Shown piece after piece: positions 14,128 to 64,000 of a stretch of DNA of 64,000 nt. The translations under genes were made by a program, and so were the position numbers. The notes beneath the pieces are model-generated. The model ran no database searches, was not told where the DNA came from, and saw only the letters and a list, made by a program, of their open reading frames with translations. The stretch is taken from NCBI RefSeq assembly GCF_002849895.1, contig NZ_CP018868.1:4059-68058 (forward strand), written 5' to 3'. The first letter of the stretch is position 1, and every line of letters begins with the position of its first letter. The DNA comes from Companilactobacillus alimentarius DSM 20249 (GTDB lineage: Bacteria; Bacillota; Bacilli; Lactobacillales; Lactobacillaceae).

Positions 14128-14130
14128 CGA

Positions 14131-44549: not shown

Positions 44550-44569
44550 TTGGCAGGCTCCTTTTTAAA

Positions 44570-44905: not shown

Positions 44906-44906
44906 G

Positions 44907-45521
44907 TTATTCCTCCTTCCTATCGTCTTCTGATGTTCGTAATTGAATTTGTTCTGCTTGCGTTTCTTCTGGTTCACGCTGATAGAACTTGTTCAATTGT
45001 TCCTCGGCAATTTGCTGGCTTGGTAACGGATCAGTGGCTAATTTGACGCGACCATTTTCACTTGTGGCTAAGTAGTATTCTTTTTCAGACTGACCAAGTT
45101 CTTGCGTTTCCAAAACATGTAGATTATGTTCGTAACGTCCTAATGCGTTATCAACTTCCAACCCATAAAAACCAAGAAAGCCTTCTAAAAAACTTTCACC
45201 AAAAAAGGTCATTTCATTTTTAATTTGCTTATATTGATGAGTTGGCTTATCACTAACTAGCTTTTCAGTTTTTTTGGCGTTCTTGCTGTCTTGATGACGA
45301 TTAAACCAACTACTGATTTTTAATGGGTCGGTCTTAATCTGACGCTTAACGGTATTTTTGATTAATGCTTTCCGTACCTCGTCAATTGGTTTACCTTCCT
45401 GTTTCAATCGGTCTTGTAACTTGTCTTGATCCGCCAATTCTTGTTCGTCTTTAACCACGATAGCTTTCTGGCCATTATGAATTAGCTTGCCATTAATGCC
45501 CTGCCAGCTTTCTACTTTCAT
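44907..45521 (-). CDS. Soluble charged protein of the transfer operon, function unknown
   Basis: A 204-aa protein rich in Lys, Glu and Gln with no membrane span. I do not recognise a domain; VKRQIKTDPLKISSWFNRHQ and FLEGFLGFYGLEVDNALGRY are its most distinct stretches. AAGGAGGTGATCC before the ATG is a very strong ribosome site. It is the first long gene of the operon after the small HTH gene and ends one base before the pilin-like gene start. Could be TrsB-like by position. Confidence 0.65.
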   Translation of the reverse strand: MKVESWQGINGKLIHNGQKAIVVKDEQELADQDKLQDRLKQEGKPIDEVRKALIKNTVKRQIKTDPLKISSWFNRHQDSKNAKKTEKLVSDKPTHQYKQIKNEMTFFGESFLEGFLGFYGLEVDNALGRYEHNLHVLETQELGQSEKEYYLATSENGRVKLATDPLPSQQIAEEQLNKFYQREPEETQAEQIQLRTSEDDRKEE

Positions 45522-45559
45522 TGGATCACCTCCTTATATTGTTTGTTGGGTTAGAAATA

Positions 45560-45868
45560 TTAAACAACTAGCTTTCCCCTAACCCGCCCGGTAAAATGGA
45601 TTGTTAGGAGGGTGACACCTAGAAGTTGCGATTCTAGGTGCTGATCCCCGTTAGCACTACTATTGCTGACGAGGACGCCCTCTTTTTTTATGTGATCTCT
45701 GATCCATTCAATTCCTTGTGCTGATATTAGTTTGCTTTTGCCACCCTCCATAATCATATTTTTGGGTACTTCGCCCTTATGACGGCGTAGCCATAAACTT
45801 ACATAAGAACGACTGCGGCCTAACTTTTGGCTAGCTTGACCAAGGTTATACCATTCTTCTTTTGACAC
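45560..45868 (-). CDS. Small helix-turn-helix regulator-like protein at the head of the transfer operon
   Basis: A 102-aa protein from GTG 45868 (GGAGGG upstream). EEWYNLGQASQKLGRSRSYV (about 4-23) is a DNA-binding helix-turn-helix of the MerR/excisionase kind, and the 40 residues after it fit the rest of that domain. From about residue 70 the protein is encoded in a region that can form a branched RNA structure (45608-45689). A palindromic region at its promoter suggests that it may control itself and the operon, as ArtA/TrsN-type regulators do in pSK41. Confidence 0.65.
   Translation of the reverse strand: MSKEEWYNLGQASQKLGRSRSYVSLWLRRHKGEVPKNMIMEGGKSKLISAQGIEWIRDHIKKEGVLVSNSSANGDQHLESQLLGVTLLTIHFTGRVRGKLVV
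45608..45689 (+). terminator. Branched hairpin structure with T-run, plus strand
   Basis: Outer stem GAGGGTG (45608-45614) with CGCCCTC (45676-45682); inside it CACCTAGAA/TTCTAGGTG (45616-45624, 45632-45640) and GTTAGCA/TGCTGAC (45650-45656, 45664-45670); then seven T (45683-45689). Together this is a three-way junction terminator for plus-strand transcription. No plus-strand gene ends here, so it may mark an antisense RNA against the regulator gene, or insulate the operon. Confidence 0.5.
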
Positions 45869-45902
45869 ATCTTTTACCCTCCTTTCTTTAACCTATGGCT
45901 CT

Positions 45903-45937
45903 ATTATATCGCTAAATGTACTCATTGTGTTCATTTA
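45903..45937 (-). promoter_or_regulatory. Promoter/operator of the transfer operon
   Basis: Minus-strand TATAAT at 45908-45903, 35 bases before the GTG. To its right, 45915-45937 begins AAATGTACTCA and ends TGTTCATTT, an imperfect palindrome in the place of the -35. A protein bound there would block the promoter, so this is a likely operator. Confidence 0.5.
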
Positions 45938-45951
45938 ATTTTACATTTAGA

Positions 45952-48012
45952 TTACAAGTGCATGCCCCCATCTTCATGCCGGTTTCGAGTTTGGTGTTGC
46001 CGTTGCTTTTTCGTCATTTCCCACTCGGTTTCTTTCAGTCCACGTTCTTGCTTTTGCCGTTGGTAATCTTCATCACGAGCATATAGAACAGTCATGATCG
46101 CATCACTAAAGGCCGTCTTTAAGTAATAGGCTGGACTAACTGGCTTATAATTTAGCGGTTGATAATGCCCCATATTTGCTTTTCTGTACTGGTCGTCCTT
46201 GGCTTGTTGCCCTTTTAACTGCTTTTGGATTTTCTCGATCTGACTGTTCTTAATCGTCGGATCGGCTTTGCATTCGCCAAAAAAGAGTTGTTTAGTGCCA
46301 TCATGCTTTAAAACCCGTTGTAAGTGATGATTTTCTAACTGATCTAAGCTAAGCTGTCCCGATAAATAAGCTAGTCCTTGTTGATGTTCTTGGGGACTGA
46401 ACACCTGTGGTGGATTTGCTTGCCACTGTTCAATTGTTTCAGCCTGACATGGCTTTAAAGCAGGATCATAGTACATCACGGCTGTATAGGCTTGTTCCTG
46501 TTTAGTCATTGGTAATTCATCTAAATCGCCTTTGGGAAAGGCCCTTTTCAATACTTCATGGTATTGCGTTTTAATGACTTGCTTAACGGCCATGATTGTT
46601 CGCAATTCTTTGACTGCGCGAGTAATCTTTTGCTGCTCGGTTGGTGAATACTTTTCTAGTAGACCTTGATCAACGTGTTCTAGACTTTCTAAGCTATCAT
46701 CATGAATCATCAGCGTATATTTAAGCTCGATTTTGACTTCCTTTTCTTGTTGCATTAATAACTTAAAACCAACGTATGGCCGCTTAGTAAAGGTCAATAA
46801 TTGTTGGGTCAACAAATCATCACGAATGTTCATTAAACGTTCGTTTAATTCACTACCCTTGAAAACTGTTTGTTCGCTATCGGTTTCCTTAATTAATTCC
46901 CGTCGTTCAGCCGCGGTTGTCTGTTCAAAATCAAGCTCTGGATAAAGTTTTTTAGTCGTGCGATCAACCACTTTATTTAAGAGTTCATCTGCTTTTTTGA
47001 GTGAGCTTTCTTGTTGGTTAATCGTCAATAATTGCTTAGTGACATCTTCACCAACAGCGTGCTTAATTAAGGTACTGTTTTTCCAATTAAATAGCATGCG
47101 CCGCTTATCATCTAAACTTTCCAAACTAATATAAGTTTTCAGTTCGTGGCTTAACTCTTTGACCACTTTTTTCTCGTTAAACGAGAAGTGTTTACTTAGG
47201 CTATCTAAATGACCTCTATTAATTACTTTTTCTTGGTTATTTTTATAGCCAGCTTTGGACTTACGATAGTTCTTAACTTGTTGGTTAAATTCTTTTCTTT
47301 CATGCCGCTTACTATTGATTCCCTCATGTTGAGTTGGTGTATCATCTATTCCCTCCTCGATAAATGATTTTTCGCTGATCCGATCGGGAATATTTTTTTG
47401 CTCTAAAACTTGATTTACACTAACCGCCCAATTGTGCCGCCATTGATTGATTTTTTCTTTTTTATCCCAATCAACCAACCAAATTTTTCGGTTTCTCACA
47501 TTCCCTGCAGGGGTCTTAGTTTTATTACCATGACTATCTAAAATGTATTCGGTTTTTGTTTTCTGTCCCCAAGTACCATCGGGGTTAAATGGGCGATTGG
47601 TTAACATCACATGAGCGTGCGGATTACCTGGGTGGTCGCGATGAATTGCCACGTCGGCTACCATGCCCTCATCAACAAAATTTTCTTGCACATATTTTGT
47701 CAGTAATTCTTTCTGTTCGGATTCACTTAATTCTACCGGTAAAGCCACGTTAAACTCTTTTGCATACCGTGAGTTTGATTTACGATCTTTCTTTTCAACT
47801 TCATTCCACAACTGCTCTCGATCACTCGCCCATTCAGGTGAATTTTTTGGCGTCAAAATAAAGCTTTCTGGCATGATCGATCGGGCATAAAAATAGTGGC
47901 GACCTTCCTTATCATCAAATAGCTTTTCACCACTTCGATAAGCGGCACTGGCAATCGCACTTCGTCCTTTACCAGCACTAATATTACTAAAACTCATATG
48001 AAAAATTGCCAT
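45952..48012 (-). CDS. traA: MobQ-family relaxase (MobA/MobL, TraA type)
   Basis: A 686-aa protein starting at ATG 48012 (GGTGG ribosome site; a codon at 48024 adds four residues). Residues 1-220 are the relaxase domain: [20 protein letters not shown], catalytic Tyr25 in SAAYRSGEK, and the metal-binding histidines in [17 protein letters not shown] (about 123-139). No helicase domain follows; the rest is helical and charged. MobQ enzymes nick at sites like TAAGTGCGC, and such a site lies about 110 bases upstream. The enzyme should cut oriT and lead the strand into the channel through TrsK. Confidence 0.95.
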
Positions 48013-48101
48013 GTCGGTCACCACCTTTCTTTGAGTTTATGGGTTTGACTTTGTTGTCGCCATCGGCGACTTCTAATACAGGTTTTAATGGGTTTAGCAC
48101 A

Positions 48102-48134
48102 ACGTCATCAAAGATGACGTGTAAGTGCGCATTG
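48102..48134. other. Origin of transfer (oriT) with RSF1010/pSK41-like nic site
   Basis: An inverted repeat ACGTCATC-aaa-GATGACGT (48102-48120) is followed directly by GTAAGTGCGCATTG. The core TAAGTGCGC is the known nick region of the RSF1010/pSK41 (MobQ) family, where cutting occurs just after it. The position between the relaxase and the small accessory genes is as expected. The exact cut was not shown. Confidence 0.85.
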
Positions 48135-48176
48135 ACCTCGTTTCACTCGGTCTTCTGATTCTCTTATCTTTAACTT

Positions 48177-48205
48177 AGTGTATGCCTTCCGCTTCGCTAT
48201 TTCAA
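48177..48205 (-). promoter_or_regulatory. Relaxase promoter
   Basis: Minus strand TTGAAA (48205-48200), 17 bases, TACACT (48182-48177). The transcript would run through the oriT sequence before the relaxase ATG, so relaxosome binding could regulate it. Confidence 0.65.
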
Positions 48206-48215
48206 CTTTTATACT

Positions 48216-48244
48216 TTGACTTAACGTTTCCCTTATGATATAGT
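48216..48244 (+). promoter_or_regulatory. Promoter of the two relaxosome accessory genes
   Basis: TTGACT (48216-48221), 17 bases, TATAGT (48239-48244). Divergent from the relaxase promoter, with only ten bases between the two -35 elements. Confidence 0.7.
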
Positions 48245-48281
48245 GTCGGTGATTATTTCTAATATGATTGGAGGGATCGTT

Positions 48282-48491
48282 ATGTCTCAAAGTAACTTAG
48301 AAAAACAAGAATCTAAATTAAAAGCCCTTAATCAAAAAATTAAGGACGAAAAAAATAAGATTGAACAACGGCTAGGTAAACAAATCATCAGTCAAGCCAA
48401 TTTAGATTATGCTAATTTGTCTAACGATCAGATTAAGCTTTTAGCCAAGCAATTTTCTGAATTTTTAAAGGTAAAGTCCGTAGATCATTAG
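48282..48491 (+). CDS. Small coiled-coil relaxosome protein (MobC/TraD-like), first copy
   Basis: A 69-aa protein; ATG at 48282 is chosen for its GGAGGGATCGTT site (a codon at 48243 would put 13 residues inside the promoter). It is a lysine-rich coil (KQESKLKALNQKIKDEKNKI) followed by RLGKQIISQANLD, the pattern of small TraD/MobC proteins beside MobQ relaxases. Together with the next gene it is likely to help the relaxase to bind oriT. Confidence 0.7.
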   Translation: MSQSNLEKQESKLKALNQKIKDEKNKIEQRLGKQIISQANLDYANLSNDQIKLLAKQFSEFLKVKSVDH

Positions 48492-48513
48492 CCATACGAG
48501 ATGGGGAAATTCC

Positions 48514-48792
48514 ATGTCTAATCAATATGAAAAACTAGTCGAGCAGCAAGCGCGTTTAAAACAAAAAATTGAGCGAGAAGATTTTAAATTACGACAATCT
48601 AAATACTATGAAAATCGGCAAGCCCGCAAAGCCCGTTCTCGCCGATTAATTCAAAAAGGGGCTTTGCTCGAAAAATACTTTCAAGCTGATAACCTCTCGG
48701 TCGAACAAACCGAAGAACTTTTAAAAATATTTGCTGACTATGTTAACGCCCATAAACCGGATAAATTAAAAAACGATCAACCTAATAACTAG
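48514..48792 (+). CDS. Small coiled-coil relaxosome protein (MobC/TraD-like), second copy
   Basis: A 92-aa protein: a basic coil (KLVEQQARLKQKIEREDFKL), then KARSRRLIQKGALLEKYF, which closely follows the TraD/MobC pattern (RRKxIxGAxLLE). It resembles the preceding gene in layout, so the pair probably arose by duplication. A GGGGAAATTCC ribosome region precedes the ATG. Its end overlaps the zeta toxin gene end by 11 bases, tail to tail. Confidence 0.75.
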   Translation: MSNQYEKLVEQQARLKQKIEREDFKLRQSKYYENRQARKARSRRLIQKGALLEKYFQADNLSVEQTEELLKIFADYVNAHKPDKLKNDQPNN

Positions 48793-48805
48793 GCCGATCG
48801 TTTTT
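48769..48805. terminator. Bidirectional terminator between mob accessory and zeta genes
   Basis: AAAAACGATC pairs with GATCGTTTTT around the overlapping stop codons. Each strand ends with a T-run, so one hairpin can end both converging operons. Confidence 0.75.
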
Positions 48806-49462
48806 ATTTTCTGGATCATTTTTAGGCTTTACTTCTGGGTTTTGATCTGCAAAATTTTGTAACTGCTTTTGCACCTTTTCTGGATAAGTAATATTTTGGT
48901 TTATCCAAGGAAAATGCCTCAAATCGTTCTTAAAAACTTGTCCCTTCTCTCTTGCATAAACAGAGGTAAACTTTTCGCTATTATCATAGATCATGACCTT
49001 ATCAGATTTAAAGGCCACTAATGGCAAATTATGTTTGGATTGCTGATAACGTTTCTTGATCGTTGCTACTGGAACACCGTGGCCACCTTTTTGTACCCGT
49101 TCGTTGACCCTTTGGATAGCTAAATTTTCATCTCGCAAAGCAACATATAATAAAGTCACTTCAAAGCCATTTTTGTGAGCTTTGTCAATCAAATTGAGTT
49201 GAGCTTTGCCTCTACCTGCCAGTGTTGTTTCTACGTGAATACTTTGCTGGTGATCTAAAGCATAGTGTAGTTGTTTGATTTCTTCTTTCATGGCTTTTAA
49301 GTTGTCACTATCTTTATGCCAATCGCCACCCATTTGTCTTAAAAGTTCATCAGCGTTAATCCGTTTTGTTTTGTCAAACAAGATGGGAAATGTATCGTAT
49401 AGCGTACTTTTTCCTGCTCCGTTAATACCAGCAACAATTATATATTGGGGTTTATCTATCAA
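48782..49462 (-). CDS. Zeta-toxin-like P-loop kinase (complete copy)
   Basis: A 226-aa protein. Walker A AGINGAGKSTLYD at residues 11-23; RINADELLRQMGGDW near 35-49; VETTLAGRGKAQ near 77-88; and YVALRDENLAIQRVNERVQK near 106-125. These match zeta toxins, kinases that phosphorylate UDP-N-acetylglucosamine precursors and block wall synthesis. The substrate here is inferred from the family. Start is TTG, overlapping the stop of the small antitoxin-like gene, so both are made together. Third gene of RHH protein, small acidic protein, toxin. The C-terminus is charged (ENKNDRPSY) and sits over a terminator. Confidence 0.85.
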   Translation of the reverse strand: MIDKPQYIIVAGINGAGKSTLYDTFPILFDKTKRINADELLRQMGGDWHKDSDNLKAMKEEIKQLHYALDHQQSIHVETTLAGRGKAQLNLIDKAHKNGFEVTLLYVALRDENLAIQRVNERVQKGGHGVPVATIKKRYQQSKHNLPLVAFKSDKVMIYDNSEKFTSVYAREKGQVFKNDLRHFPWINQNITYPEKVQKQLQNFADQNPEVKPKNDPENKNDRPSY

Positions 49463-49644
49463 CGGACAAAGTCCTTTCGCTTAATAACCTCATCTTGCCT
49501 TTTATCTAAAAAGTAGGTATATAAAGCGTCATATACTTTGCGCTTTTCTGGATCTGGCTCATGTAATGACTTATCAAGTAAATCTTTTAAATCAGTTTCT
49601 TTGGCAATTTCAAAAAAGTCATTAATTGTGATTGTATCTTTCAT
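49459..49644 (-). CDS. Small acidic antitoxin candidate, copy 2
   Basis: Identical to 601-786, where it is described. Here it lies next to the complete zeta-like toxin gene, overlapping its TTG start by four bases. Confidence 0.7.
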   Translation of the reverse strand: MKDTITINDFFEIAKETDLKDLLDKSLHEPDPEKRKVYDALYTYFLDKRQDEVIKRKDFVR

Positions 49645-49690
49645 GTTCATCACACTTCCCAGTTATTAATTTATTTAATCTGATAAGCCA

Positions 49691-49972
49691 TTAGTCCTCA
49701 TCTGGATCATTGAGCCAATCAGCGACTTCTTTAGCGTCTTTGAACTCTGTTACTGGTGTCTCTTTGGTAGCCTTTAAAAGGCTTAAATTAGCTCTTTCGG
49801 CTTCGCTCAGGGCTGGTTTAAACGGTAATGCTGCGTCAGCTACGATCCGCTTATAAAACATATTGATCGCGGTAGTTGGGTTTAGACCTAACTGGCTTAA
49901 AACGGCTTCGGTATTATCTGCCAATTCTTTGTCAATCTGGACTTGTACGCGTTTCTTTTCCTTAACTGCCAT
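49691..49972 (-). CDS. RelB/DinJ-family antitoxin, copy 2
   Basis: Identical to 833-1114, described there. Its promoter and operator are at 50004-50032. Confidence 0.85.
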   Translation of the reverse strand: MAVKEKKRVQVQIDKELADNTEAVLSQLGLNPTTAINMFYKRIVADAALPFKPALSEAERANLSLLKATKETPVTEFKDAKEVADWLNDPDED

Positions 49973-50198
49973 GATTTTCTCGCCCCCCTTTATTACTACT
50001 CACATTATACTAATCTTTGAGTACCATCTCAATTAGTCTGCTTCTTTAAAAGTTGTGAATTTAAGTTTGCTGTCCTTTCCGCAATGGCACTTATACAACG
50101 TTCCTAAAGTGCCCGTAAGCGCATTTTAAAACTCGTTTAATATAATTATGCTCTATCTGTTTAAAACAGCTTAAATGGCCTTATATAGCTTTTTAGTT

Positions 50199-51278
50199 TT
50201 AAGCACGCTCATCGTTAGGGTGTTTGGCCGCATATTCTCTAGCCGCTTGTTTATTCCACCAAACGCCAAATAGGTTTTGCATGGTGCCGTACAAGTAGTT
50301 TTCCACGTTCTTGATGTGCTTCTCATTGCTTCTAAGGGCGTTAAAGTAGCGTCTCAAGGCTTTAGTCATCAAAGGCTTCAGTTCCTCATCATCAAGTGGA
50401 ATTATGACGCCAATGTCCTGATGATCCTTTTCAACTCGATATTTAGCATTCAAGATGATACCAATAAACCGGCGCATTTGTTGCGGGGTACGGCACCAAA
50501 AACTAAGTAGTTGCACAGCTTCGGGTTCTAAGAAAACCGGTAAGCCACTGTCTTCATCAGTTAAGAAGTCATTAGCATGGGTCACCAAATCTCGGTTTTG
50601 GGTTTCTAGTTCTGCTGGTGAAAAATGGGCTGTGGAAAAGTCCAACTTTTGAGTATCTATATTGTATCTATTAGTATCTAAATTATTAGTATAGTCTAGA
50701 TCTTGTCTCTTTTTGAGAAGTCCGCTTGTACCAAGGGATTCAGACGTATCAGAAACGGTATCATGCGGGTTTCTCTTTTTGAGAAGTCCGCTTGTACCAA
50801 GGGGTTCAACGGTATCATGCGGGTTTCTCTTTTTGAGAAGTCCGCTTGTACCAAGGGGTTCAGGCGATTTTAATGGCTCTCGCTTAATATAAACGTCTTT
50901 TGCTGTTACTTCCAAATCTGCCAAATATAATCTATTTGGTTCGTTTTTGCCTGATCTTGGATTAAACCCCATATGTTTTTGATACAAAAGGTTCGCGTCC
51001 ATTAATTCGTGTTTAATCTTATTGATTTTATTATTTGACCAGTTTCGTAAATCTTTTAGTTCATTGTTTGTGTATATGAAATATACGTTGTTATTTTCGT
51101 CAACCCAATTATTGCTTAGTGAGTAACTTAGACGATCGCGTAACACCGAATAAAGTAAAATGGCACTATCGCTAAGATCCTTATATTTTTCCCCTTGGAG
51201 TAAGATCTGCGGCAAAGCGTAAAACTTTACTTCATAGGCCCTTTTAGCATTTGTAAAGTTGAAGTTTGATTGATCCAT
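50199..51278 (-). CDS. repA: RepA replication initiator (intact copy)
   Basis: A 359-aa RepA_N-type initiator from ATG 51278 (AAAGGGAG upstream; a codon at 51308 adds ten residues). The N-terminal domain (about 1-130) has the family pattern: FNFTNAKRAYEVKFYALPQI, LSDSAILLYSVLRDRLSYSL, NNELKDLRNWSNNKINKIKH. The middle (about 135-195) is encoded by the direct repeats and reads three times LGTSGLLKKR. The C-terminal domain (about 220-359) is less conserved and usually acts in plasmid-specific control. RepA binds the repeats within its own gene to start replication. Control is probably by the antisense RNA over its long leader. Confidence 0.93.
   Translation of the reverse strand: MDQSNFNFTNAKRAYEVKFYALPQILLQGEKYKDLSDSAILLYSVLRDRLSYSLSNNWVDENNNVYFIYTNNELKDLRNWSNNKINKIKHELMDANLLYQKHMGFNPRSGKNEPNRLYLADLEVTAKDVYIKREPLKSPEPLGTSGLLKKRNPHDTVEPLGTSGLLKKRNPHDTVSDTSESLGTSGLLKKRQDLDYTNNLDTNRYNIDTQKLDFSTAHFSPAELETQNRDLVTHANDFLTDEDSGLPVFLEPEAVQLLSFWCRTPQQMRRFIGIILNAKYRVEKDHQDIGVIIPLDDEELKPLMTKALRRYFNALRSNEKHIKNVENYLYGTMQNLFGVWWNKQAAREYAAKHPNDERA
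50706..50862. repeat. Three iterons in repA (intact copy)
   Basis: Units at 50706-50742, 50772-50808 and 50826-50862, each 37 bases. Units two and three are identical and differ from unit one by a single G to A. See 1848-2003. Confidence 0.8.
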
Positions 51279-51375
51279 AATAAAAGCTCCCTTTCTTAAC
51301 TGACACACGTCGTCTTAAAGAGAGTTGCTAAAACATCTGACTTGTTTTAAAATACAAATCTGATATGCTTTAACT

Positions 51376-51463
51376 GAATTACAAAGCGAACATTGGACGT
51401 GATCGGCTTTGTAAATTCACCGGCATGTGTCTATTCTGGGTTGCCCATACGGCAACTTTTTTT
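51376..51463 (+). ncRNA. Probable repA antisense RNA, copy 2
   Basis: Identical to 2517-2604: a first stem TTACAAAGC/GCTTTGTAA and a terminator GTTGCC/GGCAAC with T7. The -10 is at 51364-51369. Confidence 0.65.
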
Positions 51464-51583
51464 AATTTCTAACAACAAAAATGGACTAAATAGCATTGGT
51501 TAGCCACTTAGCCCATTGGATTCAATTTGTTTTTAACTATCCTTCACTTGTCCCATAGGACTGGTTTGCGGTATAATTAACCT

Positions 51584-51709
51584 ACAAATTAAGAACAATG
51601 TTCAGACGATTTTAACTTGGCGGTCTAAATCGTCTGAATCTAAGTAGCTCGCTATTAGCTACTTGCTAAACCTAAAATCCCCGATTCCTCGTGAATCGGG
51701 GATTTTTCT
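51584..51709 (+). ncRNA. Three-hairpin small RNA divergent from repA, copy 2
   Basis: Identical to 2725-2850. The repA promoter (minus) is at 51570-51598 and overlaps the -10 of this RNA (51572-51577). Confidence 0.6.
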
Positions 51710-51884
51710 GTTTAGCTTGATCTATTTATTCGGTTGTTAAATTAATCTTAGTCTAGCATAGCGCTTACCTACAGGCAACCGTATTTGGTTTAGTGCACTT
51801 TACTAGTTTTTACCTAATCACAAATTAATCAAGCGAACAAATTGCGTATTTACTTGTTTGATTAATTATTTATTTATTTAACTG

Positions 51885-52133
51885 CTAAATTGCATCTATG
51901 ATTGAAGCTAAGAATTCTGAACGATTTTTAAATCCGTTTTTTCGGGCAGCCGTATCCATTTTTTTAAGTTGACTTTCAGTAATTGAGAAGGTCACAGATC
52001 GCTTACGCTCTACTTCCTTTCGGCTGATATTTTTCAAAAATGCGACTGCATCTTTCTTGTTGTCTTTCAATGTAGTTTCGTAACTTTCTCTCATTTCTTC
52101 GTCTTTTTTATGGTTGAATGAATCTAAACTCAT
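51885..52133 (-). CDS. Small partition partner, copy 2
   Basis: Identical to 3026-3274, described there. Confidence 0.75.
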   Translation of the reverse strand: MSLDSFNHKKDEEMRESYETTLKDNKKDAVAFLKNISRKEVERKRSVTFSITESQLKKMDTAARKNGFKNRSEFLASIIDAI

Positions 52134-52146
52134 AATCTAACTCTCC

Positions 52147-52953
52147 TTACTTGGTTTTATTTGCTAATTCTTGAAAAAGATGATCGGCGTGTTCTATGAA
52201 CTTTTGATTTTGCTTTAAAATGGATTCATCATGATTGGCTAATTCAAATATTGAAGCGTGCCTTGCAGTAGCTTTATTAAAGAGCTCTCTTTCAGGAATT
52301 ATAGTTGCGACTGTTTCATCGCCTTCTATGTGTTTTAGCAAATCGCGAGACATGCTTGTATTATGTCTAATCATATTACCGATAAAGAAAAGCTTTGCGT
52401 CAACGTAAGTTTCGCCAGTTCGATAGTCAAAAAGTGATTTTCTGAATTTTTCGAGTCGTGTTTCTAGGTCAAACTTGGCATTGTAGCCATGTTCACTGGG
52501 TGTAATGGGACTAAGCAGGTAATTACTGATAGCAATAGCGTTTTTAGTGATGGTGCTAAAATCTGGGTGCGTATCAATTAAGATATAGTCATAGTCGGTT
52601 AAGCTTAATGAATCGGAGTTGTTTTTAAACCACATGAACAACATCATTTCTTTGTTACTGTTATTTTCTAGATAACTTCCTAAAACATCTAGGTCTATAA
52701 AACCGGCTATTAAATCTAGATTCGGTCCGACACTGTCAATTTTTACTTTTTGAGCATTGTCATTTTCTTTAAACGCTTCAGCGATGGTATTGTTTCGTCG
52801 TGTTTTTTCAAAAACGGTTGTTAAATTGCACTGATGGTCTAAATCTATTAATAGAACCTTCTTACCATGTTTGGCTAACCAATCACCATAATTTAAAGTC
52901 AAGGTTGTTTTACCAACACCACCCTTGATAGCAGTAAAAGTAATAATCTTCAT
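52147..52953 (-). CDS. parA: ParA-family ATPase, copy 2
   Basis: Identical to 3288-4094, described there. Confidence 0.92.
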   Translation of the reverse strand: MKIITFTAIKGGVGKTTLTLNYGDWLAKHGKKVLLIDLDHQCNLTTVFEKTRRNNTIAEAFKENDNAQKVKIDSVGPNLDLIAGFIDLDVLGSYLENNSNKEMMLFMWFKNNSDSLSLTDYDYILIDTHPDFSTITKNAIAISNYLLSPITPSEHGYNAKFDLETRLEKFRKSLFDYRTGETYVDAKLFFIGNMIRHNTSMSRDLLKHIEGDETVATIIPERELFNKATARHASIFELANHDESILKQNQKFIEHADHLFQELANKTK

Positions 52954-53049
52954 CTTGATACCTCCTTCATCTAGCTTAATTATATCATTAGTAGACAAAT
53001 AAATAAACAAACAATTTATTAAATAATTAAGCTGACAATTAACTCATTT

Positions 53050-53643
53050 TTAAAGCTCATTTTTAAAGATTCTATATTTTTTGCGATATCTGATAAAGGT
53101 CGTCCGTTTAATCCCTGTATTACGGGCAACATCTACATCACTCATGCCTGCCTGATAAAGTTTAAAAGCATGTTGCAAGCGGGGATCGTCTTGGGTGTAT
53201 TGGGGTTTGCGTCCATGATATTTGCCCTGCTGCTTGGCCAGAGAAATCCCTTGTTGTTGACGCTCAATGATCCGCTTACGCTCACTTTCAGCCTGGTACT
53301 TATACAGTTCAATAATGAGATTGGTCATGAGTTGACGTAAATTGGGGTCAGCAATCCCCGTCATGGACGGTAAATTCAACACATCTAGGGTGGCACCCTT
53401 ATTTTGAATGGAGTTCATGATCTGAGTTAAATCCTGGTTGTTTCTGCCTAAGCGATCTAGTTCAGTGACCAGGACAATATCACCCTCACGAATATAGGCC
53501 AGCATTTTTTGCAGTTCTGGCCGATTAGTGTTAGCCCCACTTAATTTATCCGTAAATAATTTATCAACGTCTTTTAAAGCCGCTAACTGTCGATCTAAAT
53601 GTTGCTCCTTGGAACTCACACGCGCATAACCGATTTTAGCCAT
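53050..53643 (-). CDS. Serine recombinase, copy 2
   Basis: Identical to 4191-4784, described there. The following 421 bases (53644-54064) repeat 4785-5205 and hold promoters only. Confidence 0.9.
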   Translation of the reverse strand: MAKIGYARVSSKEQHLDRQLAALKDVDKLFTDKLSGANTNRPELQKMLAYIREGDIVLVTELDRLGRNNQDLTQIMNSIQNKGATLDVLNLPSMTGIADPNLRQLMTNLIIELYKYQAESERKRIIERQQQGISLAKQQGKYHGRKPQYTQDDPRLQHAFKLYQAGMSDVDVARNTGIKRTTFIRYRKKYRIFKNEL

Positions 53644-54064
53644 TTCCAGTTCTCCTTTTGGACAGTTCTAATGAACATTTGTAATTCCTAGTATAGCACA
53701 GAATCAAAAAAGGCCACTAGGGTATAGCAGAGCGGACCACTTGAAACTTCTAACTCCACTAAAATCCGAGAAATGACCAAGAAAAATGACAACTCTTCGA
53801 ATATTGTTACTTCAAATTAAAATCAAAAATGATTACCTTAAAAATTGAGGTTTTTTAATTAAAATAATATTATTTTATGCTGTGTTATCCGCAATTCTAA
53901 ATCTGGATCATAGTGATATTTGATAGCTTTGTAGCAGTATGTAAATAAAATTATTATTCTGATAAAGGCAAGCAACGATTGACAATTCTGAGCGTTATTT
54001 TTCGAATCATGGCGTTTTTATATTACAATGATCCTAGAAAAAGTAAAGTTATGGAGGCGATTAG

Positions 54065-55270
54065 ATGAGTGATTTGGATCAGACAAACAGCTATCGATAC
54101 GTCATTGTTGGTGGCGGAGTGGTTGCTGGCTATGCCGTCAAGGGAATTCGACAGGAAGATTCAGAGGGTGAGATCTTAATTATTTCGCAAGAGGCGGATG
54201 TCCCATATGAACGACCGGCACTGAGTAAAAAACTATGGCTAGATGATGAATTTACTGAAGAGAACATTCAGATTGGTGCTGAAAATTATCCCAATGTGAC
54301 TTTTAAGTTCAAGACAACGGTTACGGCTATTAATCGGCAAGATAAGGTCATTACATTGGACGATAGTGAGCAAATCAAGTATGAACAGCTATTGCTAGCA
54401 ACTGGCGGAGAACCTAGACAAATCCAGGGACCTTCTGATCCACATGTGCTAGTCTTTAGACAGTGGTCAGATTATCGCAAGTTACGTAAATTTAGTGGTC
54501 CGAACAAGCGAGTTGTGATCATTGGTGGTGGATATGTTGGTACAGAGCTCGCATCGTCACTGACCCAAAATGAGACTGAAGTTACGATGATTTTTCCAGA
54601 AAAAGCGCTGGGTGAGGGTAAATTTCCTGAGCCTATTCGGACTGAGTATGAAGCCACGTTCAAACGCAATGGTGTCACACTGATGAGTGGTCAGTTTGTC
54701 CAATCATATCAACGCCAAGGTGACCACTTGACTCTATTGACAAAGGATGGTACGGTGATCGCAGCCGATACGATCATTGTTGGGTTAGGCGTTACGCCGC
54801 GGATTAGTTTAGCTGAAGACAGTTGTTTGGATTTAGCTGATGGTGGTGTGAAAGTTAATGAGTATCTCAATACTAGTGACCCAGCCATCTGGTCTGCTGG
54901 AGATATTGCCTCTTATCCAGATCACATCTTGGGTCGGCAACGGATTGAGCACGTGGACCATGCCCGACTTTCTGGTGAATTAGTTGGCCGTAATATGGCA
55001 GGTGCTCACATGAGCTATCAGCATACCCCATACTTCTATTCCATGATTTTTTATATTTCCTGGCAAGCAATCGGTAATATTGATCCTAAATTGCAATTGA
55101 TTTTTGATCGGCGAACGCATGGATCGCTTGTCTATTTCATAGATACCGATAAGTTAGTTGGTGTTTTAGTTTGGAATGTTAAGGTGAATCTTGATGATGT
55201 TCGCGCATTGCTTGCGAACGCTCCAGCTACAGATGATCTGGTGGGCTCCATTCGAGAGAAGAAAGCTTAG
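54065..55270 (+). CDS. FAD/NAD(P) oxidoreductase, copy 2
   Basis: Identical to 5206-6411, described there. Confidence 0.88.
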   Translation: MSDLDQTNSYRYVIVGGGVVAGYAVKGIRQEDSEGEILIISQEADVPYERPALSKKLWLDDEFTEENIQIGAENYPNVTFKFKTTVTAINRQDKVITLDDSEQIKYEQLLLATGGEPRQIQGPSDPHVLVFRQWSDYRKLRKFSGPNKRVVIIGGGYVGTELASSLTQNETEVTMIFPEKALGEGKFPEPIRTEYEATFKRNGVTLMSGQFVQSYQRQGDHLTLLTKDGTVIAADTIIVGLGVTPRISLAEDSCLDLADGGVKVNEYLNTSDPAIWSAGDIASYPDHILGRQRIEHVDHARLSGELVGRNMAGAHMSYQHTPYFYSMIFYISWQAIGNIDPKLQLIFDRRTHGSLVYFIDTDKLVGVLVWNVKVNLDDVRALLANAPATDDLVGSIREKKA

Positions 55271-55395
55271 TATCTGGATGAGATATCGGTGAATCATTGC
55301 GTCATCACTAATGTACTTTAGAACAAAATGGCCATCATTAACGATGGCTCAGTAGCAAATAAAAACTAGCCTTGAGTCATTTTAAAGTGCATGAA

Positions 55396-55484
55396 GTGCA
55401 ACACAAAAGTTAGACAAAATTGAATATTTTTAAACTGCTAAGGCATGTTCCCTGTATTCGCAGGGAGTCATGCCTTTTGTTTTC
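55396..55484 (-). pseudogene. IS3 remnant, copy 2
   Basis: Identical to 6537-6625: the OrfB tail KTKGMTPCEYREHALAV and stop. Confidence 0.75.
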
Positions 55485-56981
55485 GGCTGTTCGTCAAATC
55501 AAGTTGATGGCGGTTCAAGTTAACAGTTAGACCATAAATGGTCTAGCTGTTTTTTTATTTGGCTGATGAGCTTGCTCGAAGCCAAAACATTTGAATATTT
55601 ATACATTCAGTAAAGTTGTTCCAACTACGATATCCATAGGCACTACTTTTTATCTTTTTTGTTCTTCCAATGATTCCCTCTAAAAATCCGTTGGAATATT
55701 TAAGCTTCAGTGCATTTAATACTTGTTTACGATATTTTCTTAATGATGTCATTGTTTGATCCATAGCGGTATTGAGTGGATGATAATTGAGTAGTATCTG
55801 ATTCATTGTATCAGTATCGCCTGTTCTAATAGCCTTTAAAATATCTTGATATACTTCGTAGGACTTGGCGAAACCTTCGTCCAAATCTAAACACTTTGTG
55901 ATTAAATTTAGATCCGTTTCATAATAACCAACACTGTACTGATACTTAGGGTTTATCTTTTCGATGGAATCGAATGATTCCAAGAATTTTTTCCAATCTC
56001 TCTTCATGAACAAGTATTCTTTATTTCTTTTAGGCATTCGTTTCATTACCTGTATTCTAGTTGAATTGAGAGAACGATTCATCATCTGAACGATATGAAA
56101 TCTATCAACAACGACTTTGGCCTTTGGAAACAACTTTGGTACTAAATTAATGTATCCGGCATTTAAATCCAAAGAAATAGTTTTTACCTGTCTTCTGACT
56201 TTCAAAGGAAATCGACTGAAGTATTTACTGATTTGATATGAAGTTCTTCTGGGCAAGATATCACCCGTACGATGATTATCGCTATCTAACCAAATAAAGC
56301 TCATTTTGTCAGTAGACATAAATTCATCAAATGCCATGTGCTTAGGAAGATGTTCAGGAAGTGATTTCTTGTGCATCTTGGCTTCTTCATCGATGATACG
56401 TTGAACGGTCTTATCGGAGACGTTAAAACGTCTGCCGATATCCTTCAATGATGTATTAAAAGCAGTTTCTGATAAGATCATTTGTCTAACAGGTTGTGCG
56501 ATTTGACAATATTCCCAAACATAACTAGTTTTGGCTACAAAGATAGAGTTACAAGATTTACATTTATACTTTTGACGTTTCAGACTTATATACGTTGGAC
56601 GTAATGATAATGATGGAACGACTATCATATTTTTATTAAATCCATTCTTAACTAAGTGGCCTGCAAGGCCACAGTTAAGACAACGGTCAATCTGTTTAGT
56701 TAGCATTGCAAAATAGACTAAGGACTTGATGCCATTAACTAACATAAATTTTGGGTCTTCAGTAAAGATAATATTCTCATCTTTCATTTCAAGAGCGTTT
56801 CGTATAGACTTATTACTTAGGGACATCATTCAAATTCCTTTCATTGTGAAGCTGTAGAGGGTAGAACATCTAAAGGTATGGATGGTGTCTTTTTGATGTT
56901 CTAAAATAGTTTTATTAATAAATGGTATACAAAAATAGAGTTGATGGCAAAATGCCTATCAACTCTATTTATCGTACAGCC
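55485..56981. mobile_element. ISL3-family element, copy 2
   Basis: Identical to 6626-8122. Confidence 0.85.
55555..56829 (-). CDS. ISL3 transposase, copy 2
   Basis: Identical to 6696-7970, described there. Confidence 0.93.
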   Translation of the reverse strand: MMSLSNKSIRNALEMKDENIIFTEDPKFMLVNGIKSLVYFAMLTKQIDRCLNCGLAGHLVKNGFNKNMIVVPSLSLRPTYISLKRQKYKCKSCNSIFVAKTSYVWEYCQIAQPVRQMILSETAFNTSLKDIGRRFNVSDKTVQRIIDEEAKMHKKSLPEHLPKHMAFDEFMSTDKMSFIWLDSDNHRTGDILPRRTSYQISKYFSRFPLKVRRQVKTISLDLNAGYINLVPKLFPKAKVVVDRFHIVQMMNRSLNSTRIQVMKRMPKRNKEYLFMKRDWKKFLESFDSIEKINPKYQYSVGYYETDLNLITKCLDLDEGFAKSYEVYQDILKAIRTGDTDTMNQILLNYHPLNTAMDQTMTSLRKYRKQVLNALKLKYSNGFLEGIIGRTKKIKSSAYGYRSWNNFTECINIQMFWLRASSSAK

Positions 56982-56991
56982 GTTTTTTTGT

Positions 56992-58343
56992 GAGAGCGTA
57001 AAATATCTTGTGTAAATGCATAAAAGATTTCTGAATTGTATAGAAATAGGGAATGCCTTCCCTTATGATATTTAGTAACCACAGAAAACATCACAGGAGG
57101 CATTCCCCATGAATGAACTTACCACAGAAATTATCGCTGCACTAGCCCAAAAGCAAGATTTGGACGAAGTTTTTCGTCACCACCTCGAAATTGCGATTAA
57201 CCAGCTGCTTCAAACCGAATTGGCAGAGTTTTTGGGTTACGAACGCTACTCATACGCTGGGATTAACACTGGTAATAACCGCAACGGCAGTTATGAGCGC
57301 TCGTTTGATACGAAGTACGGCCAACTTAACTTAACCATTCCTCGAGATCGCAATGGCCGGTTTGAAAATCATACCTTGCCAGCCTACGGTCGGCACAGTG
57401 ATAATTTAGAAACAACGGTCATTCAGTTGTATACCAAGGAAATTACCACTGCTGAAATTGCCGAACTCATTGAGAAAATGTACGGTGCTCACTACTCCAA
57501 AGCCACGGTTTCCAACATGACTAAAGCCGTCAATGAACAGGTTCAAGCTTTCCAGCAACGTCGACTGGCTTCACAATATGTGGCCATCTTCTTAGATGCC
57601 ACTTACTTGCAGTTAAAGCGGGATACCGTTCAAAAAGAAGCCGTTCATATTGCGATTGGCATTCGTCCAGATGGTACGAAAGAAGTGCTGAACTACCAAG
57701 TGGCGCCAACGGAATCGACTGGAATCTGGACTGAACTGCTGGGAACCTTGATCAAGCAGGGCGTTAAAGATGTGCTGTTGTTTGTGGCCGATGGGTTAGT
57801 TGGTTTGGATGAAGGCTTGAATCGGCATTTCCCTAAAGCCAAACGACAACGTTGCCTGGTTCATGTTGGGCGGAATCTGATGAACAAAGTTCGCGTAAAA
57901 GACCGCAAGGCCGTGATCAGTGACTTTAAACAAGTTCATCGGGCCGCCAACCGTGAAGCAGCCGAACTGAAACTGAATGAGTTCGCCAACAACTGGCATC
58001 AGACCTATCCCAAATTAATCAAAGATCTGCTTAAAATGCCGAATTTACTCACTTTCATGGACTTTCCACCAGCTATCCGGCAATCACTATACTCCACTAA
58101 CCTGATTGAGAACTTTAATAAGCATCTCAAGCGCACCACCCACCACAAAGAACAATTTCCAACGGAAGATTCACTGGATCGCTTCCTGGTTTCTCAGTTT
58201 AATGTTTATAACGAGAAGTCTCTGAAGCGGATCCACCGAGGGTTCAAAGGACTCCAGGACATCTTGGAAGCATCATTTATTTAAGTTAGATACATATTAT
58301 ATGTACGAAGGCATTTCATTTACACAAGATTCTTGACGCTACC
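56992..58343. mobile_element. IS256-family element, copy 2
   Basis: Identical to 8133-9484. Confidence 0.88.
57109..58284 (+). CDS. IS256 transposase, copy 2
   Basis: Identical to 8250-9425, described there. Confidence 0.95.
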   Translation: MNELTTEIIAALAQKQDLDEVFRHHLEIAINQLLQTELAEFLGYERYSYAGINTGNNRNGSYERSFDTKYGQLNLTIPRDRNGRFENHTLPAYGRHSDNLETTVIQLYTKEITTAEIAELIEKMYGAHYSKATVSNMTKAVNEQVQAFQQRRLASQYVAIFLDATYLQLKRDTVQKEAVHIAIGIRPDGTKEVLNYQVAPTESTGIWTELLGTLIKQGVKDVLLFVADGLVGLDEGLNRHFPKAKRQRCLVHVGRNLMNKVRVKDRKAVISDFKQVHRAANREAAELKLNEFANNWHQTYPKLIKDLLKMPNLLTFMDFPPAIRQSLYSTNLIENFNKHLKRTTHHKEQFPTEDSLDRFLVSQFNVYNEKSLKRIHRGFKGLQDILEASFI

Positions 58344-60073
58344 TTTCAATGGAACTGGTGGTCAAAATCGCATTGTAGTTGCCATGCCCCAAGCTGGTTT
58401 TACGCGGGCCTTTTTGTAAAATATATTGAACAACTTGGTTAATATGTTCATCGGTCTCAAAGTCAGCCGGAGTTAAATACGTTTCTTCCAAGTCCTTGAC
58501 TGACATCGCTTGAATCTTGGCTTGAATTTTTGCTTCATCAGCTGTACTCAGCAGGCGGCCTTGCTTATCGCGACGTGCTTTGACGCGCTGGGTTTCTTTC
58601 TCGAGGGCCCGGGTTATTAACGTATCTTTGCCAATTGTTGTTACATGTTCGACGTTAAACGGTAACACGGCTTGGTCCTCTAAGGCATCTCGCAAGTTAT
58701 AACGTGACAGACTTTACCAAATAGCTCCTCAGTCGTGACCGCTAGATCACCCTTGAGCTGTTTCTTATTTTCATTAAAGATGGGGGTGCCGGTGTAACCA
58801 TACCAATTACTATTGACAAACGCTGCCCGAATTTCCTTTTGCATCTTACCAAATTGCGACCGGTGGGCTTCATCAACAAAGAAGATCACCCGTTGCTTTA
58901 AAGTCTTACTAAAGCGGGATTGCTTACCGGTTGCCAGCTGGGCTTGCGTTTTTTTGACCGCCCGATGGAGCTTTTGAATCGAGGTGACCAAGACCTTACC
59001 GTCATTTTGTTGCAACTTACGCATTAAATCACCGGTATTTTGGGCTTCGTTAATGGCAATATCGTCATTGGCAGCATAGGGCACTAAAGTTGCTAGTTGT
59101 CTGTTCATCTAAATCCCGCCGGTCAACTAAAAAGATGACCTTATCGACACCAGGATCTTGCGCAGCTAATTTAGCGGTTTTATATGAGGTGAGTGTTTTA
59201 CCAGAACCCGTGGTATGCCAAACAAAGCCATCTTGATGGTCATGAATTCGGTGCATCACGGCTTCAATCGCATAAATCTGATAAGGCCGTAAGAGAATTA
59301 AGCTCTGACGTTCTTGGTCGATGACCGTATATTCACTGACCATTTGTGGGCCATGGGAATATTAAGGACTTGGCGCGTAAACGCTAAGCCGTTTTCCACG
59401 GGGTGATTATCCCGCGTTCGGCCAATTGAACAAAAAGGCTTTATTGAAATGATCCGGTTCGGCATTCGCAAAATACGCCGTACTATCCGGCGTCATAATC
59501 ACAAACATTTGCAACAGCGAGTAAATTCCCGTATATTTACCTTCCTGTGCGTATTTTTCAATTTGGATTAAAAGCCTGGTTAAGTTCGACCGTGGCTTTT
59601 TTTAGTTTCCAATTGAATTAAGGGTAACCCATTAATTAATAAGGTTACGTCAAAACGGCGATCAGGATCGACATCTTGAGTACCAGCTAACCGTGGTCGC
59701 ACTGCTTGCCGTACCACTTCATAACTAGATTTACCGCCAGCAACGTCGCTTTCCAAAACAACTCGAGCGTCACCGTGCCCAGCTTAGCATCATCACGTTC
59801 AACTTCAACTTTGCCAATGCCATTTTCGGCGGCTAGTAACTTAGCTGCTTCGTAAGGTGTCCGGACCTCAATCGCCCGTTTAACCTGATTAAATTCGGTA
59901 TCAGTTAAAGGGTGTCCCTGCAATTTAGCATAATTATTGTTATTTAATTTATCACGAAAATTAGCCCATAATTGATCCGGCGTCGCACCATACAGGTCTT
60001 TGCGTTCCACCCATTGATTGCTTCCAGTCGTTAAGGTTTTAACAACTTCTTTTTCAAATGACAGTTCCAACAT
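58339..60073 (-). pseudogene. hsdR: Truncated hsdR, copy 2, with extra frameshifts
   Basis: Same gene as 9480-11213 but with seven one-base changes against copy 1: losses near 58700, 59344 and 59747, and gains near 59080, 59421, 59567 and 59607. They break the frame into pieces. Copy 1 and the complete hsdR at 23791 agree with each other at all seven places, so these are read errors; the true gene is the 577-codon truncated form. Confidence 0.88.
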
Positions 60074-60216
60074 AAAAACATTCCTTCCCCCACCTTTAAA
60101 TTACTCACTAGTTTATTATACGCGAACAGATTAGCGTTTAGGCTTCATAATTTAATATAGCTAGGATACAAATAAAGCCAAATAGACAAGCATCAAAAAA
60201 ACGGAAGGTTAATTAT

Positions 60217-61077
60217 TAAGAAGCTGTCCAAGATCTATGATTTTTGATATACTTCTATGTAAAAAGCGAGTTTAAGCTATGAAAAATTATCCCAGCAATA
60301 CTACTCGGCAACAATTTGAATTAATTCGACCAGCTTTAGAAAATTTTCGTAAGCGAACTAAGCCTCGAAAATATGACCTCTACGAGGTCTTCTGTGCGGT
60401 CCTATATGTCTTGAAAACCGGTTGCCAATGGCGTCAAGTCCCCGGTGATTTCCCAGAATGGCGGTCAGTTTACAACTATTACAAAATTTGGTCAACTAAA
60501 GCTGAGCCTACGGCTGATTCTTTATTGGAACAAGTTTTAAAAAAATTGTCATTGCTCGGCGAACTTACCAAGGACGTTCAGCTTTAACTTCCTTTATTAT
60601 CGTTGACGCTCAGAGCGTCAAAAACACCGCTACTGCTGAAAACAAAGGTTACGACGCTGGTAAGAAAATCTCGGGGATTAAGCGCCATCTGGCAGTTGAT
60701 ATCAATGGCTTTCCGCAGGCCATTCACATGACGCGAGCGAACGTCTCTGATCGAGACGGGGCCAGTGCAATGATCGCTTTACATGCCATGCATTTACGCC
60801 AGGTTCAAAATGTCTTAGTTGATGGTGGTTATTCAGGCGTTAATTTTCAGCTCGATGTAGCCAGTAATTTAAACGCAACCGTGCAGGTTGCGAAGCGCAA
60901 TGAGTTGCATCGATTCGAAGTCATGCCCCAACGTTGGGTAGTCGAACGATCTTTTAGTTGGCTAGAGAATTGTCGGCGACTTTGGAAAAATTGTGAGCGT
61001 CAATTAACCACCAGTCTGCAAATGGTCGTTTTAGCGTTTTTAGCACTATTACTTAAGAGATTTTAGACAGCTTCTTA
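60217..61077. mobile_element. IS5-family element, copy 2
   Basis: Identical to 11357-12217. Confidence 0.88.
60279..61066 (+). CDS. IS5 transposase with -1 frameshift, copy 2
   Basis: Identical to 11419-12206, including the seven-A slippery run, described there. Confidence 0.85.
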
Positions 61078-61412
61078 GAAATTGCTTTTAGTTTAAAACT
61101 TTCGTTGATAAAGAAATTGCAAATTGAATCTGGTTTTGTTGAGACGCGTTTACCAGTCTGGCGTTTGATCCCAGCAAGTAAATAGAACTTCTGGTGATGT
61201 CTGACTACTTTGCCAACATAGACGATTCGAGTTTGCTTTGCCTCGCGTTTTGTTAATGCTTTATCTGCGATATTGATTAGCTTGGTTTGAGTTTGGGGTG
61301 CTAATTGTTGGTTAGACTGAGTGTCGGAATTTGTTTTACTTGCGAGTACAGTTAGGGTACCTGCGATGATTAACAGGGCAATTGCCCAGATTGAAAATAT
61401 CAGCTTTTTCAT
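61053..61412 (-). pseudogene. IS5-truncated secreted protein, copy 2
   Basis: Identical to 12193-12552, described there. Confidence 0.65.
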
Positions 61413-61422
61413 TATTGACTCT

Positions 61423-62922
61423 CCAAAAAATAATAGACCCTTAGTTTATTATTTTGGGTCTAAACTTTCTGGTATTGGTGAAAGCCAATGCCAGTTTTTT
61501 ATTGTCTTCTTTTGGGCATACAAAAAGGACCTCACAGTCCAATGTTATGATTTAAGCAACCAAACCAAATCGTACAAAGGAGATACTGTGATGCCCCAAT
61601 TAAATTCTATCTTAAATCTTCTAAATATAACAGACACAAATATCGATATCTTAAATTCAAATGACAAAGTGATATTCCGTGGCAGTCAAAAGCTCCATAT
61701 CAAGGTCATCGAAGGAAGATTATCGTATCGCTTGAAGAAATGTCCTAATTGCGGGTTCGATTGCTTGATCAAGAACGGAGCTAGAGAAACCAATGTCCGC
61801 TTAGGCAGCCTCAACGGTTCCGAATATCATTTGAAACTCTGGAAGCAGCGCTATTTGTGTAGATCATGTAAAACGACTTGTGGAGCACATACTAACCTGG
61901 TAGAAAAGAATCAATCAATGTCTCGTCAAATAGATCAACTGATCATACTTTTGGCAAAACAATCCTTTACCTTCAAATCCATCGCTATGATGCTGGGGAT
62001 ATCTGCTAGCACAGTCGCCAGAAAGATATATGGCAGACTTCAATTACCTAAAAGAGCACGTTTACTACCAAAGAATATCTGCATCGATGAGTTCAGGTCT
62101 GCCAATCATTTGTTTTCTTTTATAGCTTGCGATGCAGACTCTCACCAAATGATCACCCTTTTGCCCAATCGTCTTTCGATGAAGATAATCGAACACTTTA
62201 AAAGAGAGTATTCATTATCTGAGAGACAACAAGTCGAATCAGTCTCGATAGACCTGAATGCCAATTATCAAGGTGTCATAAGAAGATTATTCCCAAACGC
62301 AAAGATAATCGTTGATAGATTCCATATCGTTCAACTGGTCGGAAGAGCGCTGGATAAAGCACGTTTGTCTGTACTGAATAGTCTCAGTGACAAAAAGTCT
62401 CGTGAATACAAAGCTCTTAAAAGCCAATGGCGGATGTTCCACTTATTTGATGATGAATTGGATCAAGCCAACATTAGATATATCTTTGGTATCAACGAGT
62501 ATATGACTCAACAGAATCTTGTAGACATTGGTCTTGATGCCGATCCAGTATTCAAAGATGTATACCAGACTTACCAGAACGTTCTACGTTCAATAAAATC
62601 TAAGGACCCTGAATTGCTTAAGCAAACATTGCAAGAATATAAAAACAATGGGAGCTCAATGGATACTGCTATAACCACTTTTAAGAACAACTACAAATAT
62701 CTAGTCAACAGCTGCGAATTGCCATATTCCAATGGTCCTCTTGAAGGATTGATTGGAAAGATCAAAAAGCTTAAACATAACTGCTATGGGTTCCGGAATC
62801 TCCATAACTTCTTTGTGAGGATCAGACTTATCATCGCATAAAAAAACCACACCATAAATGGTGTGGTAAATGCTCTAAAAAGTCTCACCAATACGATTTG
62901 ACTTAGAGCCATTATTTTTTGG
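61423..62922. mobile_element. Second ISL3 element, copy 2
   Basis: Identical to 12563-14062. Confidence 0.75.
61591..62841 (+). CDS. Second ISL3 transposase, copy 2
   Basis: Identical to 12731-13981, described there. Confidence 0.92.
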   Translation: MPQLNSILNLLNITDTNIDILNSNDKVIFRGSQKLHIKVIEGRLSYRLKKCPNCGFDCLIKNGARETNVRLGSLNGSEYHLKLWKQRYLCRSCKTTCGAHTNLVEKNQSMSRQIDQLIILLAKQSFTFKSIAMMLGISASTVARKIYGRLQLPKRARLLPKNICIDEFRSANHLFSFIACDADSHQMITLLPNRLSMKIIEHFKREYSLSERQQVESVSIDLNANYQGVIRRLFPNAKIIVDRFHIVQLVGRALDKARLSVLNSLSDKKSREYKALKSQWRMFHLFDDELDQANIRYIFGINEYMTQQNLVDIGLDADPVFKDVYQTYQNVLRSIKSKDPELLKQTLQEYKNNGSSMDTAITTFKNNYKYLVNSCELPYSNGPLEGLIGKIKKLKHNCYGFRNLHNFFVRIRLIIA

Positions 62923-62990
62923 TGGTTTTCGCAAGTCATCAAAAAGCTCACAGAACAGCCCCGTTTAGGCGTGCTCTGTGAGCTTTTCGA

Positions 62991-64000
62991 TTAATAAGTT
63001 GTTGCTTCCAATAAGGCTGGTGATTGTGGTTCTTCTTGTTTAAGAACAACCACCTGACTGTTAATCTTTAAGGCACGAGAGATAATTCGGTTGATGTCAT
63101 TGTATAGGTGGTCATCGACGCTATTGGATAGGTTACCAACGTTAACAATCAGCTTGTTTAGTTGGTTTGTATCAATTGCTTGGTCAATTTCAGCTGTGTC
63201 AGTTAATACCCGCTTGTTATTAATGGCAGCAACATCGTCAGTGATTGTTTCAACCTCTTGTTCACTGATTTCGTTGCTAGTGGTCTTTTCAATTTGGGCA
63301 TTTGTTAAGTCCGTTGGGGATTTGCTAATTTGAATTTCAGATAGAGACAGCTTTTCTGAAATTCGTTTGAATAATGCCAGATTTTTAGGTAATCCATTAA
63401 GACGATTGGAACAGTTAAGTCAATAGTTTCAACCAGATACTTATTGATTTCGCGGTAGTAACGCTCTAAATCAATCTGTTTTTCCTTGCTTGTTTCATTG
63501 TGGCCATGGAAAGTTGTTGAACCACCTTGACCAGTAAAGTTAAGTTCACCACCACGTTTTTCTGATCCTAATGTTTCCACTAGGTCGGTTGGGGCGTCTG
63601 CATCTAATTTCACGGGTGCAACTGTTTTATCAACAATTTTGAATAGTCTGAATGATGTTCCCTCTAACGCTAACAAGTAATACATCTTGTTTGGTTGCTC
63701 ACGTAAAATAGATAGTAAGTCGGGAGATTTGCTAATTGTTAACTTTACTTCGTCAAGTTGTCCGTGGTAAAACGAACAACTCTAAAGTATTACCTTGAAT
63801 GAATAACGTTATCCCTTGGTATGGTAGGTTCTGATCAATCAAGTTGTCTACCTGACGTTCAAGCTCTTTATAGTTTAATTCAGGGTGTTCCATAGAATAT
63901 TTTTTAATTTCTGTAAGCGCACTCTTTAAGTGCAGACGCTCATCTTGTTGGTATTTTAATTTATTTAAATTAATACTCAAGGTGAGTACATCTTCATTCG
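62991..64000 (-). CDS. baeRF-type protein, copy 2, partial and frameshifted by read errors
   Basis: Same gene as 14131-15189. The window ends before its start codon. One C is missing near 63395 and two bases near 63757, which split the frame. Copy 1 is intact and should be used. Confidence 0.75.

Follow-up and report, generated by a model that had tools for sequence, protein, structure and literature searches.

The window, meaning the whole 64,000-base stretch of DNA analysed here, covers positions 4059-68058 of the plasmid contig C2 (68,058 bases), i.e. it starts 4,058 bases into the contig and runs up to the last base of C2. The genome (G000) totals 2,401,923 bases in two contigs, the chromosome C1 and the plasmid C2. 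On the plasmid, Pfam identified the replication initiator RepA (RepA_N and Bac_RepA_C) and a ParA-type protein (AAA_31), and NCBIfam placed MobQ and the VirD4-like conju_CD1115 above cut-off and a VirB4-like ATPase below cut-offs only. The two collections also name a resolvase, topoisomerase III, an amino acid permease, a pyridine nucleotide-disulphide oxidoreductase and transposases of the IS256, ISL3 and IS3 types, and PADLOC models name HsdR, HsdM and HsdS of a type I restriction-modification system. The segments and genes considered below are as follows.

Window 1-15143 (C2:4059-19201), plus strand: left copy of the repeated segment; the full left copy begins at C2:1, upstream of the window (self-alignment).
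Window 15144-44794, plus strand: single-copy part of the plasmid in the contig (contig self-alignment).
Window 44795-48858, plus strand: remainder of the right copy, corresponding to C2:1-4058 of the left copy, upstream of the window (contig self-alignment).
Window 48859-64000, plus strand: right copy, matching the left copy in the window and ending at C2:68058, the last base (self-alignment).
Window 9480-11213, minus strand: ORF of 577 aa similar to the N-terminal part of HsdR, open in the left copy; the right copy (58339-60073) is split into ORFs of 118, 142, 92 and 128 aa (PADLOC, ORFs).
Window 14131-15189, minus strand: baeRF family 6 protein of 352 aa, whole in the left copy; the right copy has ORFs of 126 and 75 aa and is cut by the contig end (Pfam, ORFs).
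Window 45952-48024, minus strand: MobQ relaxase of 690 aa, whole in the right copy; the left copy is split into ORFs of 404, 102 and 161 aa (NCBIfam, ORFs).
Window 48782-49462, minus strand: zeta toxin family protein of 226 aa (PF06414, E=4e-14), whole across the join of the two copies as first placed in the window, with an identical whole copy at C2:3982-4662 (Pfam, ORFs).
Window 50199-51308, minus strand: RepA replication initiator of 369 aa, whole in the right copy; the left copy (window 1341-2449) is split into ORFs of 148 and 203 aa (Pfam, ORFs).

The RepA initiator, ParA, the MobQ relaxase and the VirD4-like protein are all present, as in circular RepA/MobQ plasmids of Lactobacillaceae, and the plasmid itself looks ordinary, with nothing in its content that needs a new explanation. 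Plasmid pL11991-4 of Loigolactobacillus backii (NZ_CP014885.1) covers 93% of the 23.9-kb transfer and restriction-modification half at 93.9% identity, and NZ_CP102543.1 of Lacticaseibacillus rhamnosus GR-1 covers 100% of window 44000-48858 at 94.7% identity. The transfer half is common to many plasmids of lactic acid bacteria (LAB), at least 80% of it being covered by 8 of the 1,217 matching records. Since none of the 2,323 matching PLSDB records, from which those of the genome itself were possibly excluded, covers at least 80% of window 1-25000 in one place, the cargo half is a mosaic of its own, made up of IS elements and genes.

The plasmid carries a second, partial hsdR of 577 of 1055 codons, which lies inverted at window 9480-11213 with respect to the gene at 23791-26958. 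At the DNA level, 9485-11217 and 23787-25519 form an inverted repeat with 96.4% identity over 1,733 bases; this 1.7-kb repeat was considered as a possible IS and was rejected, as it is the partial second hsdR copy. The copy is flanked by an IS256-type transposase and by a transposase remnant that we take to be IS5-like. Adjoining the type I restriction-modification genes is a TrlF family AAA-like ATPase (window 20649-23363), which exceeds the cut-off of NCBIfam model NF045780 (E=1.5e-155) and weakly resembles the anti-phage protein Ppl. In addition, the baeRF family 6 gene adjoins a MazG-like gene, so named in the relative at locus L011 (window 14131-15621). Only 5 PLSDB records match window 13990-15300, all of them at 99% or more, and a 41-mer from the baeRF stretch recurs on contigs of other species, 6 named genomes in all, from the genera Companilactobacillus, Weissella, Lactiplantibacillus and Ligilactobacillus. 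Because of these near-identical matches and the occurrence of the 41-mer in four genera, the stretch appears to have spread recently across genera.

The first-pass annotation had stated that bases 48859-64000 repeat bases 1-15143 in the same order and orientation, with differences limited to indels of one or two bases. Self-BLAST of the window reproduced this repeat over 15,148 columns with 0 mismatches and 11 gap columns, and the alignment resolves the differences into 10 indels, of which nine involve a single base and the other involves two. A stretch of 15 kb without a substitution is far beyond chance. In the full contig the repeat is longer: C2:1-19201 matches C2:48853-68058 over 19,213 columns with 0 mismatches, 18 gap openings and 19 gap bases. 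This 19.2-kb direct repeat touches both the first base and the last base of C2; the sequence thus closes on itself, its start being its end over 19.2 kb. Two stretches tested from the redundant part were each found twice on C2 and nowhere on the chromosome. The zeta toxin gene, which had been described as cut at base 1 and whole at the junction, is indeed whole at the junction, and its truncation at base 1 is due to the window start, as the left copy is whole on the contig.

Direct repeats at both ends of a linear record would also be found in a linear or headful-packaged element with terminal direct redundancy. The gene content, however, is that of a circular LAB plasmid (RepA, ParA, MobQ and a VirD4-like transfer protein). 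Among 12 named plasmid records underlying the best matches, 11 carry the label circular or, in the case of NC_017019, linear by record only. No phage structural proteins were found in a Pfam scan of 16 proteins, including 6 chromosomal ones, or in an NCBIfam scan of 10. We regard such an element as having practically no chance of being the right explanation.

In order to determine which copy is odd at each difference, 90 bases around each of the 18 indel sites were compared, for both copies, with the corresponding plasmid stretches of relatives (loci L005-L015) and also with the second hsdR copy of this plasmid, which supplied 7 of the 71 comparisons. A minimum alignment length of 80 columns was imposed, leaving 2 to 6 relatives per site. 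From C2:2445 to C2:6029, where the nine leftmost sites lie, the left copy was odd in 35 of 35 comparisons; from C2:13900 to C2:18955, where the nine rightmost lie, it was the right copy that was odd, in 36 of 36. The copy nearer to a contig end therefore disagrees with the relatives at all 18 sites and in all 71 comparisons, and the chance of an exact nine-nine split in that order is 1 in 48,620. All nine errors of the left copy fall in the first 6.0 kb of the contig, and all nine of the right copy in its last 5.3 kb. This pattern, as read from the sequence comparisons, points to poorly polished contig ends and not to an old duplication.

The density of the errors does not rise smoothly toward the contig tips: the left copy is free of them over its first 2.4 kb. 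Single-base changes within runs of identical bases account for 17 of the 18 indels, a figure that is weak evidence given that runs of at least two take in about 52% of all bases and that a one-base insertion beside its like forms a run by construction. Since seven of the nine right-copy errors lie in a stretch of about 1.05 kb inside the partial hsdR, which has a paralogue at 96% identity, paralogue trouble during polishing contributed to the right-copy errors. One of the left-copy indels falls in a short tandem repeat in repA (offset about 66 bases, window 1848-2003).

The offset between the copies is 48,859 bases for any cut made between the error-bearing ends (C2:6030 pairs with 54889 and C2:13899 with 62758, by arithmetic) and 48,858 bases for a cut at window base 1. 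A turn that avoids every odd-copy site can be taken from the following segment.

Window 1972-50830 (C2:6030-54888), plus strand: turn of 48,859 bases without any of the 18 sites in the copy discordant with relatives (arithmetic on the alignment).

We then compared ORFs of at least 60 aa between the copies, ignoring the first ten residues. The same protein is encoded in both copies by 25 of the 35 ORFs per copy, and four genes, those for MobQ, RepA, the partial HsdR and baeRF, are each broken in just one of the copies. The join points C2:19201/19202, 48852/48853 and 52916/52917 lie inside ORFs of 352, 135 and 226 aa, respectively. Plasmids of relatives are continuous over the first join (99.6% identity across window 14051-15300), and a relative's plasmid is continuous over the second (across window 44000-48858, at the 94.7% identity given above), followed by a zeta toxin gene.

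The chromosome contig C1 also overlaps itself: its first 9,070 bases recur as its final 9,013 at 99.14% identity, with both ends reached (C1 1-9070 and 2324853-2333865, loci L020 and L021). Since both C2 and C1 overlap themselves, neither replicon was circularised in the assembly. The C1 copies differ by 17 mismatches and 53 gap openings, i.e. by substitution clusters besides indels, and in a MAFFT alignment nearly all gaps (58 of 59 gap columns) fall in the end copy. The substitutions cluster in inverted repeats at 2542-3292 and 5436-6177, which could reflect either poor polishing or a real inversion in the culture. Among the same-genus genomes searched for relatives close enough to judge the C1 overlap, the best outside matches were about 76% identical. 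The ends of C1 fall in a BREX-like locus that encodes a 1207-aa protein with BrxC domains and a pair of oppositely oriented Eco57I-type methylase ORFs (648 and 661 aa) that flank a tyrosine-recombinase-type integrase.

These data bear on two further explanations in which the repeat would exist in the cell. The deposited sequence can be read as a real circular plasmid of 68,058 bases with a recent 19.2-kb tandem duplication, and copies without substitutions are what a very recent duplication would give. However, the record would have to open at the very base of the duplication boundary, and closing it from the last base to the first would join a baeRF gene and a transfer gene, each at its middle; both genes are whole in relatives and elsewhere in C2. 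The sorting of the copy differences by distance to the contig ends and the same overlap pattern on the chromosome also argue against a duplication, which we therefore hold to be very improbable. Alternatively, a plasmid dimer or higher multimer in the cell, of which the contig would be a 1.4-unit slice, would yield an identical contig. The plasmid encodes a resolvase-like recombinase (PF00239), and such recombinases can resolve multimers in other plasmids. Yet nothing in the sequence demands a multimer, and it would leave the chromosome overlap unexplained; we give it as little credence as the duplication.

Taken together, these results make us nearly certain that the window is most of a contig representing a circular plasmid of about 48.86 kb with an untrimmed assembly overlap, and that the repeat is not real biology. 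The proposal in the first-pass annotation of a circular plasmid of about 48,859 bp read more than once is borne out by the overlap from base 1 to the last base, by the odd copies near the ends, by the chromosome overlap and by genes that are whole and syntenic across the closure points. A long-read overlap-layout assembler, presumably the type used, would have kept going round the circle to give a contig about 1.4 turns long; the contig would then have been deposited without detection or trimming of the overlap, so that its first 19.2 kb recur at the end. The few differences between the copies would be consensus errors in thinly covered or badly polished contig ends, and the molecule in the cell would be a circle of 48.86 kb. 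Weighing against this reading are the uneven spread of the errors, the substitution clusters in the chromosome overlap and the lack of end overlaps in 11 of the 15 other genomes surveyed (see below).

Overlap of the start and end of circular contigs has been described for long-read assemblers, with near-identical contig ends, contiguity above 100%, poor end quality and both plasmids and chromosomes affected, according to the Circlator paper (PMC4699355) and an assembler benchmark (PMC6966772). C2 is the same in kind and a plain case; it stands apart in that its overlap makes up a large share of the molecule (19.2 of 48.9 kb) and in that the odd copy could be assigned at all 18 sites from relatives. 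The available portion of PMC10272865 does not mention end overlaps.

To see how often such overlaps occur, we surveyed 16 genomes with at most two contigs, comprising the present one, seven of the genus and eight of other families. For large contigs the last 20 kb were compared with the first 40 kb, and matches of 1,000 bases or less were not counted; G006:C2 was compared as two 14-kb halves, G031:C2 over its first 40 kb to the exclusion of the middle, and G045 and G051 for C1 only, and the slice from G035 contained 2,948 masked bases. Three of the 16 genomes have overlaps that run from base 1 to the last base: the present one in both contigs, G022:C1 at start 1-35180 and G029:C1 at start 1-25524. 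About 1 kb of the middle of the G029:C1 overlap is missing under the length filter. In two others the contig end aligns close to the start but leaves an overhang without a match: G001:C1 (start 12183-32470, overhang 12.2 kb) and G040:C1 (start 3490-13403, overhang 3.5 kb). End overlaps thus occur in four of the 15 other genomes, two of them clean and two with overhangs, and the remaining 11 of 15 showed no end overlap within the tested reach.

Until the record is trimmed, figures for gene counts, copy number and plasmid size taken from it will be wrong. The earlier warning that gene counts would be doubled holds, but the amount does not: 19.2 kb of the plasmid is doubled in the full contig, not 15 kb, along with about 9 kb of the chromosome. 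On annotation, the poorer copies give false broken genes or pseudogenes (MobQ, RepA, the partial HsdR and baeRF). That the errors divide cleanly between the copies shows a way to spot such an artefact without reads. More generally, untrimmed circular contigs could be common and unflagged in long-read species-representative genomes, their doubled ends being two separate consensus readings of one locus, an idea that we hold to be less likely than not. If it is true, doubled ends would serve as a built-in error map, and ends that differ beyond indels, such as the BREX-like inverted repeats of the chromosome, may record real variation in the culture.
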